From Flavobacterium croceum DSM 17960 (GTDB taxonomy: Bacteria > Bacteroidota > Bacteroidia > Flavobacteriales > Flavobacteriaceae), in contig NZ_PQNY01000001.1 of assembly GCF_002917885.1 (NCBI RefSeq), positions 62,001 to 126,000 of the forward strand: DNA of 64,000 nucleotides, written 5' to 3'. How positions within the stretch are numbered: position 1 is the first letter of the stretch; each line of letters opens with the position of its first letter. This document shows positions 3,825-16,151 of this stretch, piece after piece. Both the position numbers and the translations under genes were made by a program. Below the pieces are notes generated by a model. It had not been told where the DNA came from, ran no database searches, and saw nothing but the letters and a program-made list of their open reading frames with translations.

Positions 3825-5090
3825 GTGGGACAAATACTTAAAAAAAATAAGATCTCAAAAATAAATAAGAAGTCTGCTTATAATTTTTTAAATATTGCGA
3901 TAATAAAACTTTTAAATATTTTTTCAAAGGTTTTTGTGGTAGGATATCTGATAAGAACATTAGGAGATTTAAATTATGGTGTTTTAACGTGGGTTGATTC
4001 TATCATTCAATACTTTATAATATTCATTAATTTTGGATTTGATTTATATGCGGCAAAGTATATTGTCGAGACTGAAAATAATCAATATAAAAAAAATCAA
4101 ATTATTTCAAGCATTTATTATATTAAATCATTTATATTCTTTGTTTCATTTATTCTAATGTCTTTAATGACCTTTAACCAACAAATATATATTTACAAAG
4201 ACCTTCTATTTTTAATGTTATTATTTGCAATAGGGGAAATTTTAAATCCTTTGTGGTATTTTCAAGGAGTAGAAAAAATGCATAAAATAACTGTTACAAC
4301 CACAATAGGAAAGGTATTACTTCTATTAGCAACATTGTTTTTTATAAAGAAACAAAATGACACCATATATTACATATTGTTTCTAGTTTCAATAAACGCA
4401 TTGACGGGATATGTGGGATACTATTTAATGAAAAAAGACTGTAATTTTAAATTTATAAGAGTACCTATTGGTAATTTAAAAAAGTATTTTAAAGAAAGTT
4501 ATTTGTTTTTTTTAGGAAGAATGTCAATGTTTACATTCAATTTAGGAACCGTATTTTTAATAGGCTATAGTTTTCAAAAAGAATTAGTATCTATTTATGA
4601 TATCTCGATAAAAATAATATTTATATTTATAATACCATATGAAGTGCTTCAACAAGCATTATTCCCAATCCTTGTTAAAGGAACATCAAATAAAGTAATT
4701 AAAAATTTAATTTTATTTACACTACTATCAAGTGTAATAATTACAATTTCAATATTATTATTTTCAAAACATTTACTTATTCTTTTTGCTGGAAATGAAC
4801 TTTTAAACAATTTATATGTTTTGAAAATTTTGACATTTTTAATAATACCCGTAAGCTTATCTCTTATTTATGCTAATACTATTATGGTTGCAAAAGGATT
4901 TTTTAAGGAATTTAATAGCACATTAATAATTTCAAGTATTTTTTATATAGGTTCTTTAGCCGCGTTATATTTTACTAATAATTGGTCATTCGTAAATGTA
5001 ATTGTTGCAAGAGTAGTTGCAGATATTTTTTTAATTGGAATTAGAATGTATATTTGCAGAAAAAAAATTTACAATGAAAAATATACATAA
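3825..5090 (+). CDS. Wzx-type polysaccharide flippase
   Basis: The 421-residue protein is almost entirely hydrophobic, with about 12 predicted helices, and has the N-terminal pattern of Wzx/MOP-superfamily flippases (IRTLGDLNYGVLTW, then GFDLYAAKYI). It would move undecaprenyl-diphosphate-linked repeat units across the inner membrane. No ATG exists near the 5' end; GTG at 3825 is the most likely start. A gap of about 100 bp separates it from the previous gene, and the base composition becomes visibly more A+T rich here. The 3' end overlaps the next lipoprotein gene by 17 bp. The family is secure, the substrate unknown. Confidence 0.85.
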   Translation: MGQILKKNKISKINKKSAYNFLNIAIIKLLNIFSKVFVVGYLIRTLGDLNYGVLTWVDSIIQYFIIFINFGFDLYAAKYIVETENNQYKKNQIISSIYYIKSFIFFVSFILMSLMTFNQQIYIYKDLLFLMLLFAIGEILNPLWYFQGVEKMHKITVTTTIGKVLLLLATLFFIKKQNDTIYYILFLVSINALTGYVGYYLMKKDCNFKFIRVPIGNLKKYFKESYLFFLGRMSMFTFNLGTVFLIGYSFQKELVSIYDISIKIIFIFIIPYEVLQQALFPILVKGTSNKVIKNLILFTLLSSVIITISILLFSKHLLILFAGNELLNNLYVLKILTFLIIPVSLSLIYANTIMVAKGFFKEFNSTLIISSIFYIGSLAALYFTNNWSFVNVIVARVVADIFLIGIRMYICRKKIYNEKYT

Positions 5091-5697
5091 AATCTTTCTA
5101 CTATCTATTTTTTTAATATTTATTTCTTGTGATAAAAGCTCGAAAGAACTTGAAATTAAACCAAATGCAAGTAATGGACAAGATGCGTTAATTAGTAGTT
5201 CTTTGCCTTTTCAAAACTTTAATGATGATGAGAACATTCATCTATATGTATCACAGCAAAAAGACTCTGTTTCTTTAAACAGAGTACTAATAGACTTCAA
5301 GGAAATACCTTCAAATGTTACTATTGACAGTGCGTTTTTATATTTTAAATTCAACAATAAATCTGCTTTTGGAAAAGAGAACTATGGTGAAAATGGATTT
5401 ATATTAAGTAGAGTCATTTCTCCTTGGGACTCTAAAGACGTAAATTGGAAAAATCAACCAGTAACATCAAATATAAATCAGGTGTATACTTCAAAAACTA
5501 AACTTAGTAAAGACCCGAAGCGAATAAATGTAACTAGATTAGTGCAAGATATATCTTCCGATAAAGAAAACAGTTATGGATTTATGTTAAAAATGATAAA
5601 TGAGAAAGAAAATGCCATATTGCTATTAGCATCAAGTAACTCAAATGATGAAAGTTTAAGACCTCGCCTTTCTATATTTTATTCAGAAAAAAAATAG
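5074..5697 (+). CDS. Lipoprotein with DNRLRE (CBM96-like) domain
   Basis: The 207-residue protein begins with a lipoprotein signal peptide ending in the lipobox FISC-D, so it is probably acylated at that cysteine. The rest looks like a single DNRLRE-type beta-sandwich: DALIS near the start, LNRVLIDF and IDSAFLYFKF in the middle, the WDSKDVNWKNQP segment, NVTRLVQDI and a C-terminal LRPRLSIFY. In the literature this fold is a carbohydrate-binding module of extracellular enzymes. Here it stands alone, starts 17 bp inside the end of the flippase gene, and is followed by a Wzy-like gene, which suggests a job in polysaccharide assembly, retention or attachment. That role is inference. ATG 5074 is chosen because it gives a complete signal peptide. 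Confidence 0.75.
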   Translation: MKNIHKIFLLSIFLIFISCDKSSKELEIKPNASNGQDALISSSLPFQNFNDDENIHLYVSQQKDSVSLNRVLIDFKEIPSNVTIDSAFLYFKFNNKSAFGKENYGENGFILSRVISPWDSKDVNWKNQPVTSNINQVYTSKTKLSKDPKRINVTRLVQDISSDKENSYGFMLKMINEKENAILLLASSNSNDESLRPRLSIFYSEKK

Positions 5698-5714: not shown

Positions 5715-6983
5715 TTGATAATATTATCTAAAACATCTAATTTACCTTTAATATTAAAAGCATCTGCAATATTGGGTGTTACGGAAGTCTTATTTTCCAT
5801 TCTATTTAGGTATTTGGGACTTGAAGATTTTCAAATGGTTCCATACCTAAGACTTGTAACGACTGTTTTTTTAATTGCTTATTTGTTTTATAAAAAACTG
5901 ATAATTAAAGACTCCATAAAAAGAATTGTCTATTATAACAGTTTAAATAATAAATTAGTTTTTTATTGGATTTTAATTACATTAATTTGTTTGATTGTCG
6001 GGATTTTTAGACTAAACCCTATTTTATACATAATAACTGATTTTTTTTATATTTTTTTTGGTTTTCTTTTTTATAGAATAATTCAAACTAGTGTCAATAT
6101 AAACTCTGAAATTCAAAAATTAGAAATAAATACTGTACATAATACATTTATTATTTTATTATTATTACTTTCAATTATATGCCTTTTTTCAAAAATTAAT
6201 ATCCCATCTTTTCTTTTAGTTTTATCTCTTAGTTTTTCTTTTTTCTTTTTTTTTAAAAAAAAATATTTATATACCTTTTTATATTTTATCCCTTTTATCA
6301 TACAGTTTACAACAGCTAATAGAGCTATATTAATAGTATTCTTACTGTTCGCTACTTTATCTTTTTTTAATCGACCTATTTCTGAAAAAACATTATTTAA
6401 AGTTATTTCCTTAAGTGTCACAGCTATAATTGTAACTCCATATATTCTTAGTTTTTCTATAAAACAAATTCTTCCTTTAATTTCTGACGGTTCAGTATTA
6501 AAAGCTAGATTAGATCAAGTAAAAATGCTTATGGAAGGTAAATACAATTGGAATTCCCCAGAAATGCTATCGCTAAAACAAAGAATAGACGAAGTACTTA
6601 TTGTTTTAAAATTTTGGACAGCTAATGTATTTAATTTTGTTTTTGGAGGAGGGCTAGGAGCTACAATTGAAGGACATAGCTTTAAAGATGTTGGTGTTGG
6701 ATCATCAGCCATATTAGGTAAAGAAAAAATACACAATATACATATACTCCCTTTTTCATTAATATTTAGATATGGTTTGTTTGGATTGATTCTGTTTTAC
6801 TTACTTTTGAAAAATCTTTTTTTAAATCTTTTTAAAGTTTTGACTACTAAAAATTCTATTTATAGTAGTTTAATTCTATTTCAAATCTCTTGGATAATTT
6901 ATTCGTTACCTGCGGCATCTTTTTTATGGACAAGTCCAATATTTTGGTTTTTATTAGCGTTCGATTATGGAAAGAATAAATAA
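5715..6983 (+). CDS. Wzy-like O-antigen/capsule repeat-unit polymerase (first of three)
   Basis: The 422-residue polytopic protein has about eleven hydrophobic helices and a large hydrophilic loop at about residues 255-345 that carries FVFGGGLGATIEGHS and IHNIHILPFSLIFRYG. A loop with GxGxG followed by a histidine-rich stretch next to a helix is the usual look of Wzy/WaaL/RfaL-type proteins. Overall sequence conservation in Wzy is low, so the call rests on topology and context (directly after the flippase and lipoprotein). The frame opens at 5706 and has no early ATG; TTG at 5715 is the best start. A T9/A9 homopolymer junction lies at 6246-6263. The 3' end overlaps the next gene by 17 bp. Confidence 0.7.
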   Translation: MIILSKTSNLPLILKASAILGVTEVLFSILFRYLGLEDFQMVPYLRLVTTVFLIAYLFYKKLIIKDSIKRIVYYNSLNNKLVFYWILITLICLIVGIFRLNPILYIITDFFYIFFGFLFYRIIQTSVNINSEIQKLEINTVHNTFIILLLLLSIICLFSKINIPSFLLVLSLSFSFFFFFKKKYLYTFLYFIPFIIQFTTANRAILIVFLLFATLSFFNRPISEKTLFKVISLSVTAIIVTPYILSFSIKQILPLISDGSVLKARLDQVKMLMEGKYNWNSPEMLSLKQRIDEVLIVLKFWTANVFNFVFGGGLGATIEGHSFKDVGVGSSAILGKEKIHNIHILPFSLIFRYGLFGLILFYLLLKNLFLNLFKVLTTKNSIYSSLILFQISWIIYSLPAASFLWTSPIFWFLLAFDYGKNK

Positions 6984-8133
6984 CTTAAAATTTCTTGAAT
7001 TATTATTTTTAAGCACTGCATTGTTTATTTTATTGCCTAATAAAATAAAAGAAATTCCTTTTTTATTGTTTTCAATTACACATCTAATGTGTTATGGGTA
7101 TAAAAATATTAAAATGAAATACTTTAGTTTACTTATATTTTTCTTTCTTGTAAATCTTGTTAGTTTATTTTATTCTGATGATTTAAAATATGGATTGAGA
7201 AGAATAGAGGGTTTTTTACCATTTATTTATCTAGCAATACCTTATTCTACTCAAAACTTTAAGAATATTAACATTACTAAATGGAGTAAAATATTTAATA
7301 TTTGTAACGCAATTTTTTTGTTGATTTTTGTTTTTTATTGTTTTATTAGTTCTGATCATTTGAGTTACAACATTATAAGAACTAGTTTTGAAAAATTACC
7401 ACTTATAAACATCCACCCTATTTACCTTTCTATTATTGCTTTTATTGGATTTATCACATCATTGTTTTATTTAAAAAACACTATTTCAATATTGTCGATA
7501 ATAAGTAATTTAATTATTATTATGTTAACAGGTGCTAAATCCACATTAATTTTTTTGATAATTATTATACCCTTTGTTTTTTTTAATAAAAAAATAGAAA
7601 AAATAAAGAAGATAATGTTTTTTTTATTAATAATATTTTTCGCTTCATTATTAATTTTTACAAAAAATGGACATAGAGAAAGATTTAGAGAAATGTTTTT
7701 AGCTGTATCCTATAACCAATTCAATACTAATAATTCAACTAGTGTAAGGAATGCTGTTTATAAATGCACACTAGATAGATTAGAAAAAACAAACTTATTT
7801 TTTGGTAATGGTATTGGTGATTCCCAATATTTTTTAGATCAATGTTTTAAAATTTCACACTCAGATTTGTTGGGTTATAACACTCATAATCAGTATTTAG
7901 GAATTGTCATCTCAACAGGTTTTTTTGGCTTATTTTCTTTTTTCTTACTAATTTTTTATGTTTTTTTACTAAATCAATATAAGGGTTTTACGCCTTTTTT
8001 AATAGTAATATCTTTTTTTCTTTATTTTTTTCTTTTTGAAAACGTCTTAGAAAGAAAAAACGGTATATTACTTTTTTTGTTTTCAATTTACTTTATATTC
8101 AATAAAAAAGTTTATCAATCATCAAAGTATTAA
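6967..8133 (+). CDS. O-antigen ligase family (Wzy_C-like) membrane protein (second of three)
   Basis: The 388-residue protein has about ten hydrophobic helices. The long periplasmic loop has NSTSVRNAVYKCTL, FFGNGIGDSQ and the signature THNQYLGIVISTGFFG, in which the histidine before NQYL is the conserved residue of the O-antigen ligase/polymerase domain. It would join or polymerise lipid-linked glycans at the periplasmic face. The ATG overlaps the end of the preceding Wzy-like gene by 17 bp, so the two are translated as a pair. Whether this one is the polymerase, the ligase that attaches glycan to lipid A core, or a protein O-glycosylation ligase cannot be decided here. Confidence 0.78.
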   Translation: MERINNLKFLELLFLSTALFILLPNKIKEIPFLLFSITHLMCYGYKNIKMKYFSLLIFFFLVNLVSLFYSDDLKYGLRRIEGFLPFIYLAIPYSTQNFKNINITKWSKIFNICNAIFLLIFVFYCFISSDHLSYNIIRTSFEKLPLINIHPIYLSIIAFIGFITSLFYLKNTISILSIISNLIIIMLTGAKSTLIFLIIIIPFVFFNKKIEKIKKIMFFLLIIFFASLLIFTKNGHRERFREMFLAVSYNQFNTNNSTSVRNAVYKCTLDRLEKTNLFFGNGIGDSQYFLDQCFKISHSDLLGYNTHNQYLGIVISTGFFGLFSFFLLIFYVFLLNQYKGFTPFLIVISFFLYFFLFENVLERKNGILLFLFSIYFIFNKKVYQSSKY

Positions 8134-8138
8134 AACAA

Positions 8139-9218
8139 ATGAGAATTTTAATTATAGGTCCTTTTCCAAATCCAATTACAGGTGTTAGTTTAGCAAACAA
8201 AGTGTTATATGATGGGCTTACTAAGCATGGTTTTATTATTAAAAAAATAGATACTGAGTTTAACTCAAATATTAACTCAAAGCATGGTTCATTTAAATTA
8301 AACAAAGTATACATATTTAAATCATATTTTCAAGCATATAAAGTTATTTCCTCAAATTTGGTGTACATTACTATTGGACAATCGTTTTTTGGGGTTTTAA
8401 AATATCTTCCTTTTTTAATTATATCTAAAGTCTTCAAAAAAAAAACAATAGTTCACTTACATGGTGGACACTTATACAATGAATATTATTTGCTTTCTAG
8501 GATAAAGAAAATAATTTTTAGAAAAACAATTGGTATGTTTGATTTTGGAATTGTTTTATCAGAAAGCCTTAAGATAAACTTAGAAAAGTTTCTAAAGCCT
8601 CAAAATGTGTTCTGCTTGAATAATTTTTATCTAGATGAATTAAAAACAAACTTTGAAACAATAAGATCAAAGGATTTTTCAAAAATAAAAATGGTTTTCT
8701 TAAGTAACCTTATAAAAGAAAAAGGAATTAATAATTTACTTGAGGCAAAAAAGAAATTAAAACAAAAAGGAATACATTTTAATTTAAAAGTTGCAGGAAG
8801 TGTTATTTCAACAAACAATTTAAATGAGTATTTCAAATTTGATAATGAAATATCCTATTTAGGAAACGTTACAGGGAAACGTAAATATGAACTACTTCTC
8901 TGGTCAAATATTTTTTGTTTACCAACATATTACAATATGGAGGGACAGCCTATAAGTATTATTGAAGCCATGGCAACTGGAAACATGATATTATCAACTA
9001 AGCATGCTGGGATTATAGATATTTGTTCTGAAAAAAACGCTTTGTTTTGTCAAAAAAACGACATAGATGATTTAGTAGAAAAAATAGAATTTGTATATTA
9101 CAATTCAAAACTAATACAAGATATTTCTTATGAAAATTATAAATATGCTTCGGAAAAATTTACTGAAAAATCATTTATAGATAATGCAATAAAAATCTTT
9201 CAAAAATGTATGAACTAA
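8139..9218 (+). CDS. Family 4 glycosyltransferase
   Basis: The 359-residue GT-B enzyme starts with MRILIIGPFPNPITGVS, the usual N-terminal strand and glycine loop of GT4 enzymes. The C-terminal half has the Ex7E motif (EGQPISIIEAMATG), which contacts the nucleotide-sugar donor in retaining GT4 transferases. The central hydrophobic stretch (GVLKYLPFLIISKVF) is a membrane-facing patch, not a helix pair. The gene lies 5 bp after the second Wzy-like gene and overlaps the next by 13 bp. It should add one sugar to the repeat unit on the cytoplasmic face; donor and acceptor are unknown. Confidence 0.85.
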   Translation: MRILIIGPFPNPITGVSLANKVLYDGLTKHGFIIKKIDTEFNSNINSKHGSFKLNKVYIFKSYFQAYKVISSNLVYITIGQSFFGVLKYLPFLIISKVFKKKTIVHLHGGHLYNEYYLLSRIKKIIFRKTIGMFDFGIVLSESLKINLEKFLKPQNVFCLNNFYLDELKTNFETIRSKDFSKIKMVFLSNLIKEKGINNLLEAKKKLKQKGIHFNLKVAGSVISTNNLNEYFKFDNEISYLGNVTGKRKYELLLWSNIFCLPTYYNMEGQPISIIEAMATGNMILSTKHAGIIDICSEKNALFCQKNDIDDLVEKIEFVYYNSKLIQDISYENYKYASEKFTEKSFIDNAIKIFQKCMN

Positions 9219-9733
9219 ACAATTTTAAAGTCCCAAAAGATTTTAGAGGAAAAAATATCATAACTGTTCAGCTTTGGGACTTTGTTAAGTTTTTTTTGTT
9301 TAAACCATCACCAAAAGCATTATACGGTTGGAGAAGGTTTTTATTGAGAGTTTTTGGAGCAAAAATAGGCAAAGGGGTAATTATTAGACCAAGTGCAGAA
9401 ATTACCTATCCATGGAAATTGATTGTTGGTGATTATAGTTGGATTGGAGACAATGTTGTTTTGTATACTTTAGGAATAATAGAAATAGGAAGTCATACTG
9501 TAATTTCTCAAAAAAGTTATCTTTGTACAGGTTCGCATGATTATTCAAAAAGAGATTTTCCAATTTATGCTGTGCCTATAAAAGTTGGGAATTCATGTTG
9601 GATTGCCACAGATGTTTTTATTGCACCTGGTGTAAAAATCAACGATGAAGTAATTATAGGTGCTAGGTCTTCAATATATAAAAGCATATCTGCTAGAGGA
9701 ATTTATAAAGGTAATCCAGTACAAAAAACATAA
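9206..9733 (+). CDS. WcaF-like left-handed beta-helix acetyltransferase
   Basis: The 175-residue protein carries hexapeptide repeats of the LbH fold (GVIIRPSAEITYP, IEIGSHTVISQKSYL, IAPGVKINDEVIIGARS). The catalytic histidine context CTGSHDY is present, and the N-terminus (FKVPKDFRGKN, then QLWDFVKFFLF) matches the WcaF/colanic acid acetyltransferase subgroup. It would O-acetylate a sugar of the polymer using acetyl-CoA. It overlaps the upstream GT4 gene by 13 bp and the downstream gene by one base (TAATG), so it belongs to a tightly coupled operon. Confidence 0.85.
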   Translation: MYELNNFKVPKDFRGKNIITVQLWDFVKFFLFKPSPKALYGWRRFLLRVFGAKIGKGVIIRPSAEITYPWKLIVGDYSWIGDNVVLYTLGIIEIGSHTVISQKSYLCTGSHDYSKRDFPIYAVPIKVGNSCWIATDVFIAPGVKINDEVIIGARSSIYKSISARGIYKGNPVQKT

Positions 9734-10944
9734 TGCAAATAACAATTATTAGCAACAATTATTATCCTGAAGACAGCGGAATAGGATTATACTCTACAGG
9801 AATGGCAGAGTTTTTGGCAAAAACACACAATGTAAAAGTTATTTCCGCAATGCCCTATTATCCGCAATGGGAAATTTATTCTGAATATAAAAACAAACCA
9901 AAGTTTTACAGAGAAACCATTAACAATGTTGAGGTTTTACGCTTTAAACAATACACACCTAAAAATCCCACTTTTTTAAAAAGGATTTTTCAAATGTGCC
10001 ATTTTTTTTTAGGTTCGATAGTAAATGTATTTAAAATTAAAAAAAATGATGTTGTAATAGTAGTTATGCCTTTTACAATTTCAATTATTTTAGGAAGATT
10101 GGTTAAGTTGTTTAAAGGAGGAAAGCTATTAGTTCATGTTCAAGATTTTGAATTTGACGCTGCTTTTGAAACAGGACTTTCAAAGAAATCGGGATTATTA
10201 GCGAAGATTATTTTTCACGTAGAACGGTTTTTGCTTAATCGTGCCGATTCTGTCAGTACAATAAGCTATGGAATGTTAAAGAAGTTGGAAACGAAAACCT
10301 CTTCTTCAACAAGTTATTTTCCTAATTGGATAGATTATTCAAAGATTAATCCCAAAACAGCAAAACCAAATAAACTCTTTGACCCTAATAAATTTAATAT
10401 TTTATATTCAGGAAATATAGGAGCAAAGCAAGACTGGGAGTTTTTTATAGATTTTGTAAAAGCTTGTCAAGAAAATAATAAAATCCATATTTGTCTAATT
10501 GGTGAAGGAGCAAAAAGAATGGAAATAACTGAAAAAATTAAAAATTTCTCTAATTGTACTTATTTTCCTCCAGTACGTTATGAAGAATTAAACGACTTAT
10601 TATGTAATGCTAATTTACATATTCTTTTTCAAAAAAGCACCGTAGTTGATACAGTAATGCCTTCAAAAATATTAGGAATGATGGCAAGCGCAAAACCATC
10701 AATTGTTACAGGGCACAAAGAGTCTGAGGTAAAATATAATTTTGAAATTTCGAATGGTGGATTTTATTTTTATGATGAAAACAAACTAAATCAAATAATG
10801 AAAAAAATCAATCATTTGATAGAATCTCCTCAAGAATCAAAAGAAATTGGAATTAATGCAAGAAAGTTTATTGTTGAAAAGTTCTCATCAGAGAAAATTT
10901 TATCTACCTTTATGAAAGAATTAAACTATATAACAAGAAAATAG
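9733..10944 (+). CDS. WcaI-like family 4 glycosyltransferase
   Basis: The 403-residue protein starts with MQITIISNNYYPEDSGIG and has PYYPQWEIYSEYK, both characteristic of the WcaI colanic acid glycosyltransferase subgroup of GT4. The donor-binding region shows NILYSGNIGAKQDWE and the MPSKILGMMASAKPSI segment. It would add a sugar (fucose in the colanic acid model) during repeat-unit assembly; in this locus GDP-fucose genes are present on the opposite strand downstream, which fits. The start codon shares one base with the stop of the acetyltransferase gene. Confidence 0.85.
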   Translation: MQITIISNNYYPEDSGIGLYSTGMAEFLAKTHNVKVISAMPYYPQWEIYSEYKNKPKFYRETINNVEVLRFKQYTPKNPTFLKRIFQMCHFFLGSIVNVFKIKKNDVVIVVMPFTISIILGRLVKLFKGGKLLVHVQDFEFDAAFETGLSKKSGLLAKIIFHVERFLLNRADSVSTISYGMLKKLETKTSSSTSYFPNWIDYSKINPKTAKPNKLFDPNKFNILYSGNIGAKQDWEFFIDFVKACQENNKIHICLIGEGAKRMEITEKIKNFSNCTYFPPVRYEELNDLLCNANLHILFQKSTVVDTVMPSKILGMMASAKPSIVTGHKESEVKYNFEISNGGFYFYDENKLNQIMKKINHLIESPQESKEIGINARKFIVEKFSSEKILSTFMKELNYITRK

Positions 10945-10953
10945 CGATTATTT

Positions 10954-12576
10954 ATGAGAAAAGCCTTGTGTTTTATAGCTGTTTTTTTTCTTATTGCTTG
11001 TTCAAATGATTCAAACACTAGTTATTTTGAATTATCACAATCAAGTTTTGCATTAAACAAACCACAACAAACTATTACGGTTCATATTTCTTGTAATTCA
11101 AGTTGGCAAGCAACTGATATTCCATCATGGATTACTTTGCAACAAACACAAGGAAATGGTGATGCCGACTTGCAGATTGTTGTTTCACAAAATAACGATC
11201 AAGATGGACAAACAAGAACGGGTATTATAAAGTTTATATCTGATAATAAAGTTTACTTACTAACAATTGTTCAAACAGCAGCAAATTCTTTTCCGATAAC
11301 AATAGTTAATAATGAAGTACATCATTTGGATTACAATCAGCATGTTTTTACTATTCAAATTTCGAGTACACAACCTTGGTATATACAAAGTAAACCTGCA
11401 TGGGTTCAAGTAAACCCATCAACAGGTAATGCAGGCATAACTTCTGTAGAAATAACAATACCAGAAAACAATACAATTTCAAATAGAGGCGGATCTACTA
11501 TTTTTGCAACCGAAAATCCATTTAATGCAAATAATCCTACATACACAGTATTAGATATTGACCAAACAATTAGCCCAATATTACCTAATCCAAACTCACC
11601 AACATTATATGATTGGGACTTAATAAAAGGTGATGTTGATGTTTCATTGAATTACGCCCGAAGTTTGTCGAGTGATTTTAAAAATAACACATATTATTTA
11701 ATGCATACAACACAATCTACGGGACATATAGATAAATTTAATGGCAGTTGGAGTAATTATGGAGATATTAATAGTTTCGATTATCCAAAAATGACAGTAG
11801 GAAATAATGGAATTCCTTATGCAATATACTATCAAAATGGGCCAAAGGTTTGTCAATTTAATCCAAGTATAAATAACATCCCTTTTCCCGCATCTACTTC
11901 TTGGAAAAGTAGTATGGATTTAGACAGTAACAATGACATATATTTAAGTAATAGTAGCATAAATTCAAGCTCAGGTAACATAGAAAATTTATCAATTTAT
12001 AAATACAATTCAAGTTGGTTAAATATTGGTAACTTTAATGAATTTCTAATTATAAATCATATTATTAAAATTGACGCAAATAACATCCCATATATTGCCT
12101 ATAATTATCGCGACCAAACAGGGAGTTATAATTTGGTAGTTAAGAGTTTTAATGGTTCATCATGGACTACTGTGGGAGGTAGTGTTGTAGATAATAGTAG
12201 TGGTGAAATTGATTTTCAGATAGGTACAGACAATTCATTATATTTAACTTATAATAAAAACAATACTTCTTATGTTAAAAAATTCAACAATGGTAGTTGG
12301 TCAACAATTGGTTTTTTTAATGGTTTTATATTTCGTGTTTTTTTAGATAATAATAATAATCCATATATATTTTGTAATGGTAAAATCAAAAAACTTGTCA
12401 ATTCACAATGGGTTGAATTGGAACCATTTAAAATAATTTATAATAATCAAGTAATAGATTATTCTGGATATGAATTACAAGATATAACTATGTCTTTTGA
12501 CCAAGAAAACAAATTAATTGTTGCTTTTATAATAGGTGGTAATTTATCCTTAAAAGTTTTAAGATATAGAAACTAA
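10954..12576 (+). CDS. Surface lipoprotein with BACON-type domains and beta-propeller-like repeats
   Basis: The 540-residue protein starts with a lipoprotein signal (lipobox LIAC-S near residue 16). Residues about 24-110 form a BACON domain (SWQATDIPSWITLQQ, GDADLQIVV, RTGIIKFIS), and a second BACON-like copy runs from about 115 to 200 (PWYIQSKPAWVQVNP, GGSTIF). The rest, about 215-540, contains roughly five degenerate repeats built around FNGSWSNYG, NSSWLNIG, NGSSWTTVGG and NNGSWSTIG, each followed by a D-x-NN-x-PYI strand pair, which looks like a beta-propeller. In polysaccharide-utilising Bacteroidota, BACON domains accompany glycan-binding surface proteins. The gene is only 9 bp after a glycosyltransferase gene and ends 4 bp from the convergent fcl gene. 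Function unknown. Confidence 0.72.
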   Translation: MRKALCFIAVFFLIACSNDSNTSYFELSQSSFALNKPQQTITVHISCNSSWQATDIPSWITLQQTQGNGDADLQIVVSQNNDQDGQTRTGIIKFISDNKVYLLTIVQTAANSFPITIVNNEVHHLDYNQHVFTIQISSTQPWYIQSKPAWVQVNPSTGNAGITSVEITIPENNTISNRGGSTIFATENPFNANNPTYTVLDIDQTISPILPNPNSPTLYDWDLIKGDVDVSLNYARSLSSDFKNNTYYLMHTTQSTGHIDKFNGSWSNYGDINSFDYPKMTVGNNGIPYAIYYQNGPKVCQFNPSINNIPFPASTSWKSSMDLDSNNDIYLSNSSINSSSGNIENLSIYKYNSSWLNIGNFNEFLIINHIIKIDANNIPYIAYNYRDQTGSYNLVVKSFNGSSWTTVGGSVVDNSSGEIDFQIGTDNSLYLTYNKNNTSYVKKFNNGSWSTIGFFNGFIFRVFLDNNNNPYIFCNGKIKKLVNSQWVELEPFKIIYNNQVIDYSGYELQDITMSFDQENKLIVAFIIGGNLSLKVLRYRN

Positions 12577-14876: not shown

Positions 14877-16151
14877 ATGAATATTTTGAATTTAAAAAAG
14901 AAAGATATATTACTAGTATTGTTCAATTCAATGCTGTTTACAATCCCCTTTCCTTTTATAATAAATAGTATTTCACTTATTTTATTTTCAATTTTCTATA
15001 TATATTATTATAGAGATAATTTTATATTTTGTTTTAACTTCTATCTTTTTCTACCAATATCTTATTTTATTTTAGTATTGATTCTGTGTTTATTATTTCA
15101 AAATGAGAATCTTTTTTTTGGAATTAAAAAAAACATTCCTTTTTTAGTAATTCCTTTGTTTTTTTTAAATGCTTCTTTTGTTAAAGAGGTAGATATTAAA
15201 ACTGTCTTGAAACACTATAGTTTTAGTTTTCTTTTAGTGGCACTATATTTTATTTTAAATGCCTTTTATTGCTTTTTACTTACAAAAGATAGAGAATTAT
15301 TTTTTTTTCAAAAACTTGTTGGTATAGATCAAAATGCAATTTATGTCTCTGTTTATGCGTCTATAGCAATGTTTTATTTTTATTCAAAAAACAACAAAAC
15401 TATTTTAGACAGAATATCTTTAGTTTTTTTATTATTTTTTATTTTTTTACTTTCTTCTAAAACGGTGATTTTTATTGATATATTATTATCAATTATATAT
15501 TATTTTTTCTTCTCAAAGAAAAATAAATCCGTTCGTGTTTTAACTTTTGTATGTGGATTTCTATTTATACTTTTTTCTTGCTATTTTGTTCCACAAGTAA
15601 ACAAAAGAGTTCTTGAAGAATACGAGACTGCTTTTGTTGATAACACAATAAATGATTTATACAGTAATACAAAACAAAAGACATATAATGTATCTTTAAA
15701 AGATGCGTATTATAATAAAAGTTTTAAAAAAAATCAATTTTTTCCAGGAACAGCATATAGAGTTTTCCATATTAGACTTTTCAAGGAAATAATGAATAAA
15801 AAAAAGGAGTGGTTTAGAGGACTTGGTATAAATAATACTGATCTTTTGTTGCATGAAAAATATTTGAAATATAATGTGTTTTTGAACCAAAATTATTTTA
15901 ATTTTCATAATCAATATGTACAGTCTTTTGCAGAGTTAGGTTTAATAGGATTAATAATAGTTGTTTTAATGGTGTTTTTTAATGTTTATAATGCGATTCA
16001 AAAGCAATCTTTCCTACATCTAGCATTTGCATTTATGATGCTTGTATTTTTTCTTACAGAAGTATTTCTAATAAGACAAAGAGGAATAATGTTTTTTGTT
16101 TCATTTTATTGTATATTCAATGTTTATAAAAATAAAAATTTAAAAGAATAA
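14877..16151 (+). CDS. O-antigen polymerase/ligase-like membrane protein (third of three)
   Basis: The 424-residue polytopic protein has about ten hydrophobic helices and a periplasmic loop at about residues 245-355. The loop carries [26 protein letters not shown] and [17 protein letters not shown]. The HNQY followed by E-L-G and a helix is the conserved Wzy_C/O-antigen ligase signature, more complete here than in the first Wzy-like gene. It starts its own transcript, with the UDP-glucuronate decarboxylase and initiating transferase genes downstream. It could be the WaaL-type ligase or a polymerase; the sequence does not decide. Confidence 0.75.

Follow-up and report, generated by a model that had tools for sequence, protein, structure and literature searches.

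A lipoprotein with a glycan-binding fold that recurs in surface-polysaccharide gene clusters suggests a polymer-specific helper

To our knowledge, the travel of Wzy-made chains through the periplasm, and the help that polymer-specific factors may give them, are poorly understood. In cellulose synthase, the periplasmic jelly-roll domains of BcsB lie beside the polymerase and are thought to guide the chain.

The DNRLRE or CBM96 fold is represented by 7VBO (CBM96, or TM6-N4), a module of the alginate lyase Dp0100 in which Arg36 is essential for alginate binding according to the available excerpt of PMC9971899, and by 8WAB, a chondroitin-sulphate-binding DNRLRE module of a chondroitinase. The same fold forms the BamG-proximal end of BamH, a lipoprotein of the F. 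johnsoniae BAM complex described in the accessible part of PMC12611786 as extracellular, essential in the wild type and present throughout the phylum. Nothing on polysaccharide biosynthesis loci was found in the parts of the DNRLRE and CBM96 literature that were retrieved. In the literature on O-antigen wzx/wzy loci of Flavobacterium and Bacteroidetes, judged from listings, no description of such a lipoprotein was found, and the word 'lipoprotein' is absent from the main text of the F. psychrophilum O-polysaccharide papers searched.

The window, i.e. the whole stretch of 64,000 nucleotides of Flavobacterium croceum DSM 17960 that was analysed, carries a gene for a lipoprotein of this fold within a row of polysaccharide genes, the features of which are the following.

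3825 to 5090, forward strand: wzx, flippase (PF01943, E 3.6e-19).
5074 to 5697, forward strand: DNRLRE/CBM96-fold lipoprotein gene (NF033679, PF24517; AlphaFold2 model of pLDDT 81 and pTM 0.79).
5074 to 5127, forward strand: signal peptide with the lipobox at its end (FIS, then C; codon of the lipidated Cys at 5128-5130).
5179 to 5676, forward strand: DNRLRE domain, residues 36-201 (NF033679).
5715 to 6983, forward strand: putative wzy polymerase with a TTG start and about eight transmembrane segments (no Pfam match; weak profile match to Wzy_C proteins).
6967 to 8133, forward strand: second polymerase/ligase-like membrane protein, Wzy_C (PF04932, E 3.8e-14).
8139 to 9218, forward strand: glycosyltransferase (PF00534, E 2.1e-22), order kept in two relatives.
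9206 to 9733, forward strand: WcaF-type acetyltransferase (NF007797, 252.5 bits, cut-off 192), order kept in two relatives.
9733 to 10944, forward strand: WcaI-family glycosyltransferase (NF007640, 298.6 bits, cut-off 276), order kept in two relatives.

The lipoprotein frame opens with an ATG at 5074, ends with a stop codon at 5695-5697 and encodes a product of 207 amino acids, which was matched by NF033679 (DNRLRE_dom) with E 5.6e-22 (78.6 bits, cut-off 34) and by PF24517 (CBM96) with E 6.2e-8 (33.1 bits, gathering cut-off 26). Its lipidated residue is Cys19, followed at +2 to +6 by DKSSK. With both matches above their cut-offs and a lipobox present, the single-domain DNRLRE lipoprotein proposed by a sequence-only reading of this DNA is a real gene. 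The spacing given in that reading was also correct, as the gene starts 17 bp inside wzx, whose stop lies at 5090, and a further 17 bp separate its own stop from the TTG of the following gene. The description of the gene as 'fused' into the junction of wzx and wzy was wrong, since the reading frames are separate. A wzx-lipoprotein fusion was rejected for this reason and because relatives do not share the overlap: F. yafengii and F. xinjiangense have the start of the lipoprotein gene approximately 51-52 bp past the wzx stop, and the overlap is a local detail.

No second DNRLRE/CBM96 match was found in the window's genome. On contig 26 of this genome, a 204-aa lipoprotein (L072:639-1253) was matched weakly by the lipoprotein profile in its first part (E 1.4e-4), had no NCBIfam match and was not counted as a relative. 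A phage or plasmid origin was rejected, as the lipoprotein had no phage match and the plasmid search gave three DNRLRE proteins of Priestia, 28-29% identical to it, and no others.

Upstream of the lipoprotein gene, the window's genome carries rmlA, rmlC and rmlD (L036). The gene that follows the lipoprotein, 5715-6983, is probably wzy, a name given from its position and from the character of its product, with about eight predicted transmembrane segments. Its earlier label 'Wzy-like' holds as far as these segments and a weak profile match to the Wzy_C proteins of these loci are concerned (hhalign probability 25%, E 7.5e-4, query residues 187-372), whereas a Pfam search of the product gave no match and the identity of the polymerase is our own inference. 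Such a call despite the lack of a Pfam match has a precedent in F. psychrophilum, for which one serotype-linked Wzy is listed without InterPro match in the excerpt of PMC5601056 consulted. The AlphaFold2 model of the Wzy-like protein (pLDDT 47) was too poor for use.

The polysaccharide region of the window encodes three polymerase/ligase-like membrane proteins in all (5715-6983, 6967-8133 and 14877-16151), two of which carry PF04932. The same gene row ends with another lipoprotein of unusual kind, which has BACON domains (10954-12576, forward strand); it lies outside the shared block, as the WcaI-family gene of F. yafengii and F. xinjiangense is followed by an epimerase-type gene without an intervening frame of at least 120 aa.

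When 299 Flavobacterium genomes were searched, NF033679 matched in 25 and frames below 330 aa with a DNRLRE domain were found in five, but a small lipidated single-domain DNRLRE gene was present in three, namely those of the window, F. yafengii (apparently G242) and F. xinjiangense (apparently G224), all with the gene order wzx-DNRLRE-wzy-Wzy_C-GT-wcaF-GT. The small matches of G150 and G125 were under the cut-off, and their neighbours, as judged by eye, were not polysaccharide genes; L034 had no match in a test with 34 marker proteins, and the neighbours of L035 were judged by eye. A search of named genomes with narrow patterns gave no match with the single sequence and two with the three-row alignment. 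A three-row Wzy profile, with the best five candidates per genome scored, matched at least three of the 299 genomes, which among the matches listed were the same three that carry the lipoprotein.

The lipoproteins of the window and F. yafengii are 60% identical, compared to 50% for wzx, 41% for wzy, 43% for the Wzy_C gene and 54% for the next glycosyltransferase, with wcaF (70%) and the WcaI-family gene (68%) both above this value. For the pair F. yafengii and F. xinjiangense, dN/dS of the lipoprotein was 0.19, which is low and slightly above the values of its operon neighbours (0.09-0.17). The lipoprotein gene is under purifying selection and is a working gene.

In the family Flavobacteriaceae, a three-row lipoprotein profile, scored on the best seven candidates per genome, matched at least eight of 397 genomes. 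NF033679 matched in 81 of the 397, mostly in large frames, in agreement with the previous statement that DNRLRE domains usually belong to larger proteins. There were 18 frames of 330 aa or less in the 397 genomes, and seven of them lay in rml/wz loci (one each in G000, G515 and G638, two each in G468 and G492), all seven being lipidated and lacking the acidic signal for surface export. For the remaining 11, none of the 34 marker proteins gave a match within approximately 10 kb (phmmer, E 1e-4; a shorter stretch for L056 and L060, where the contigs end). As this marker test is not fully sensitive and missed L078, a glycan locus by Pfam, the neighbouring frames of the 11 were also read by eye. 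Two of the 11 are lipidated and carry the export signal (GNDDD and SSDDD), and nine have no lipobox, showing an ordinary signal peptide or no visible start; these classes were drawn up after the data had been seen, with some lipoboxes read by eye. No marker match was found around the DNRLRE genes of G574, G366 and G633, the last of which is weak and was not counted as a relative.

Apart from the cassette of the window, two other types were found in the family. In G492 and G468, two tandem DNRLRE copies lie downstream of a nucleotide-sugar dehydrogenase gene (TIGR03026 in G492) and 10 and 3 bp upstream of the gene for a membrane protein of about eight transmembrane segments, with a flippase next. 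The loci of G515 and G638 contain rml genes and a flippase; their single DNRLRE copy comes after an acetyltransferase-like gene, and the polymerase-like gene closest to it is encoded on the opposite strand. Neither the flippases nor the polymerase-like proteins of one type have BLAST similarity to those of another (E 1e-3); therefore, the three cassette types are unlike.

The known ligands of the fold are polyanions, and a link of the lipoprotein to acidic polymers was considered. Nucleotide-sugar dehydrogenase genes occur in four of the seven Flavobacteriaceae loci (L047, L048, L051 and L052, three confirmed by NCBIfam and L048 by similarity to L047), where some may be conserved flank, and none was found by the marker search in the stretches of the window, F. 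yafengii and F. xinjiangense. The tandem lipoprotein genes of L047:9171-10496 and L048:9349-10649 belong to the same locus type in two genera, and the tree pairs the two first copies, and likewise the two second copies, so that the duplication seems older than the split between the two.

For the order, 246 genomes were searched with a nine-row profile and the best 12 candidates per genome were scored, which makes the counts minimum values, and the neighbourhoods were examined in nine of the 15 matching genomes outside Flavobacterium. Outside the family, the small proteins examined were mostly secreted and not encoded in wz loci; L062 and L066 had one glycosyltransferase marker each, and the stretch of L065 was too short for the locus to be judged. 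At L062:6096-14371, four single-domain DNRLRE genes were seen within approximately 8 kb, downstream of glycosyltransferase-like genes and interspersed with a response-regulator-like gene and genes for larger proteins, all named by eye. L068:9105-10592 and L069:6382-7851 encode secreted two-domain DNRLRE proteins near some glycan genes, with three and two marker matches, respectively; their neighbours are PIG-L-like, WbqC-like and glycosyltransferase-like genes, with names given partly by eye.

For the phylum, 335 genomes were searched with the best nine candidates per genome scored, and at least 23 gave a match; besides that of the window, neighbourhoods were examined in five genomes, which are all those with a frame below 395 aa. 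At least four convincing frames of 360 aa or less were found, two of them lipidated and in glycan loci (L078 and L080, in genomes G1048 and G1025). According to Pfam, PF01943, GT4, GT9 and DegT genes surround the DNRLRE lipoprotein gene of L078, and that of L080 lies among GT2 genes, where wzx was not seen. The frame of L081 and the lipidated one of L079 are outside glycan loci. G1169, with an exopolysaccharide-like locus by eye, was not counted as a relative, as it covers profile positions 8-90 only.

Taken together, at least 11 lipidated DNRLRE proteins in at least nine genomes are encoded in glycan-assembly loci, and nine of them, from seven genomes, are in clear wzx loci, all of Flavobacteriaceae. 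The recurrent neighbourhood that the sequence-only reading had predicted was therefore found. Its refuting case, a gene located mostly outside polysaccharide loci, applies to DNRLRE domains overall but not to the lipidated single-domain subset: of the 13 lipidated proteins without export signal that were encountered, 11 are in glycan loci (the exceptions are L062:6750-7391 and L079:9717-10793). The gene recurs beside wzx and polymerase-like genes in dissimilar cassettes, and is in this sense a component of Wzx/Wzy loci. It is also rare, being present in three of 299 genomes of the genus and five of 397 of the family (approximately 1%), and is thus no general part of the Wzx/Wzy pathway, most Wzx/Wzy systems doing without the lipoprotein.

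A gene so rare and cassette-bound, and found with its Wzy in the same three Flavobacterium genomes, could be a passenger in a serotype cassette that is mobile as one unit, and have a function that does not concern polymer assembly. This is unlikely, as the linkage recurs in three cassette types with dissimilar flippases and polymerase-like proteins, and as the lipoprotein is better conserved than the adjoining wzx and wzy and is maintained by selection.

The descent of the domain was analysed in a tree of 41 rows, obtained from 47 aligned domain rows after dropping six with fewer than 110 filled columns. In the best tree, the nine Flavobacteriaceae wz proteins did not form one clade, with two changes forced by the starred branches, and the long-branch row L060 fell inside them. 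A single clade of the nine was not rejected (p-AU 0.436), and a clade of the nine plus the two phylum-level proteins gave a p-AU of 0.086.

Regarding the side of the membrane, surface lipoproteins of Bacteroidota have an acidic signal that directly follows the lipidated Cys and is SDDFE-like in F. johnsoniae, as stated in the portion of PMC5080379 consulted. With the signal scored as at least two acidic residues at +2 to +6, it was absent from all 11 glycan-locus DNRLRE lipoproteins (lipobox found by script in nine and by eye in G468b, NIKTS, and G638, SKSYT) and present in 12 of 39 other lipoproteins of the examined loci, the 12 including the two DNRLRE proteins of L049 and L050. The chance of this difference would be approximately 0.02 if the proteins were independent, but they are related, which makes the comparison statistically weak. 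The lack of the signal in the 11 proteins makes the periplasmic side more likely, and a periplasm-facing lipoprotein is favoured, for which 'guide' or 'hold', from among the roles proposed earlier, would fit better than 'anchor'.

A surface-exposed anchor that keeps released polysaccharide on the cell would agree with a lipoprotein of glycan-binding fold inside a glycan locus, and BamH, which partly has the same fold, is on the extracellular side according to the excerpt of PMC12611786. Nevertheless, such a role is improbable, since none of the 11 has the acidic export signal, and two lipidated DNRLRE proteins of the family outside wz loci do have it. Surface anchoring is thus less likely than the role of a periplasmic accessory.

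The AlphaFold2 model of the lipoprotein, built from a nine-row alignment, was fairly confident. Its best match in the PDB was 8wab (Z 18.9, rmsd 3.3, 171 aligned), followed by 7vbo (Z 15.9, rmsd 3.2, 162 aligned), and lower matches were TGF-beta-family prodomains, then BamH (Z 11.2) and BcsB (Z 8.2). All nine proteins have N, T or V at the position aligned with Arg36, as read from alignments. The modelled fold thus suggests glycan binding, with the known alginate site not kept. Related domains are parts of polysaccharide lyases, as described in the part of PMC9971899 seen, and the protein might accordingly modify or hydrolyse the polymer and not bind it; this is highly improbable, as the alginate-lyase domain is a non-catalytic binding module and the protein of the window has nothing else attached.

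The above results suggest a polymer-specific helper, as a lipoprotein of glycan-binding fold recurs in surface-polysaccharide gene clusters. The explanation that we prefer, and to which we give about an even chance, is that a periplasmic CBM96/DNRLRE lipoprotein binds the glycan of its own locus and serves as a polymer-specific accessory of Wzx/Wzy assembly. The gene, its lipobox, the predicted fold, the purifying selection and the recurrence beside wzx and polymerase-like genes in three dissimilar cassettes of one family are established by the present data; glycan binding, a periplasmic orientation and a partnership with Wzy are parts that we infer. The lipoprotein would be made together with the flippase and the polymerase, its single jelly-roll would bind, on the periplasmic side, the glycan of the locus or lipid-linked intermediates of this glycan, and the lipid-tethered domain would receive, guide or retain the chain between polymerase, ligase and outer membrane. 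The rarity and the cassette-bound distribution suggest that the lipoprotein suits particular polymers.

In a broader and more tentative form, which we find possible though doubtful, some Wzx/Wzy pathways of Bacteroidota would use a dedicated, polymer-matched periplasmic glycan-binding lipoprotein encoded beside wzy. If true, this would be a class of assembly factor between the polymerase and the outer membrane for which no description was found in the literature searched, and a fold known mainly from degrading enzymes would be put to use in polysaccharide synthesis. A small cassette-bound lipoprotein of this fold, encoded beside the polymerase gene, is a concrete and easily deleted candidate for a role in chain transit.

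Compared to the described systems, BamH shares with the lipoprotein the lipid anchor and the fold of one end, and an outer-membrane assembly accessory of this kind, aiding a partner outer-membrane protein of the locus, would agree with the structural match and with a weak match of one of the nine proteins to the BamH family NF053686 (E 8.4e-4, 18.1 bits vs. a cut-off of 420). Such a role is very unlikely. BamH is larger, its solved chain having 517 residues and the NCBIfam model 516 positions, whereas the protein of the window is one domain of 166 residues, without a match to NF053686 at E 0.1 and without a surface signal; and BamH is phylum-wide, whereas the lipoprotein is rare and cassette-bound. 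It is the modelled fold that would speak for a BamH-like role. The structural match to BcsB is weak and near chance level, no sequence match between the two was seen, and BcsB is a membrane-anchored synthase subunit, not part of a Wzy system. 8WAB, the best structural match, is 14% identical to the lipoprotein and belongs to a chondroitinase. Finally, 7VBO has the same fold and is also matched by profile (E 1.5e-7), but it is one module of a large lyase, whereas the protein of the window, without the aligned Arg36, is a free lipoprotein encoded in a biosynthesis operon.
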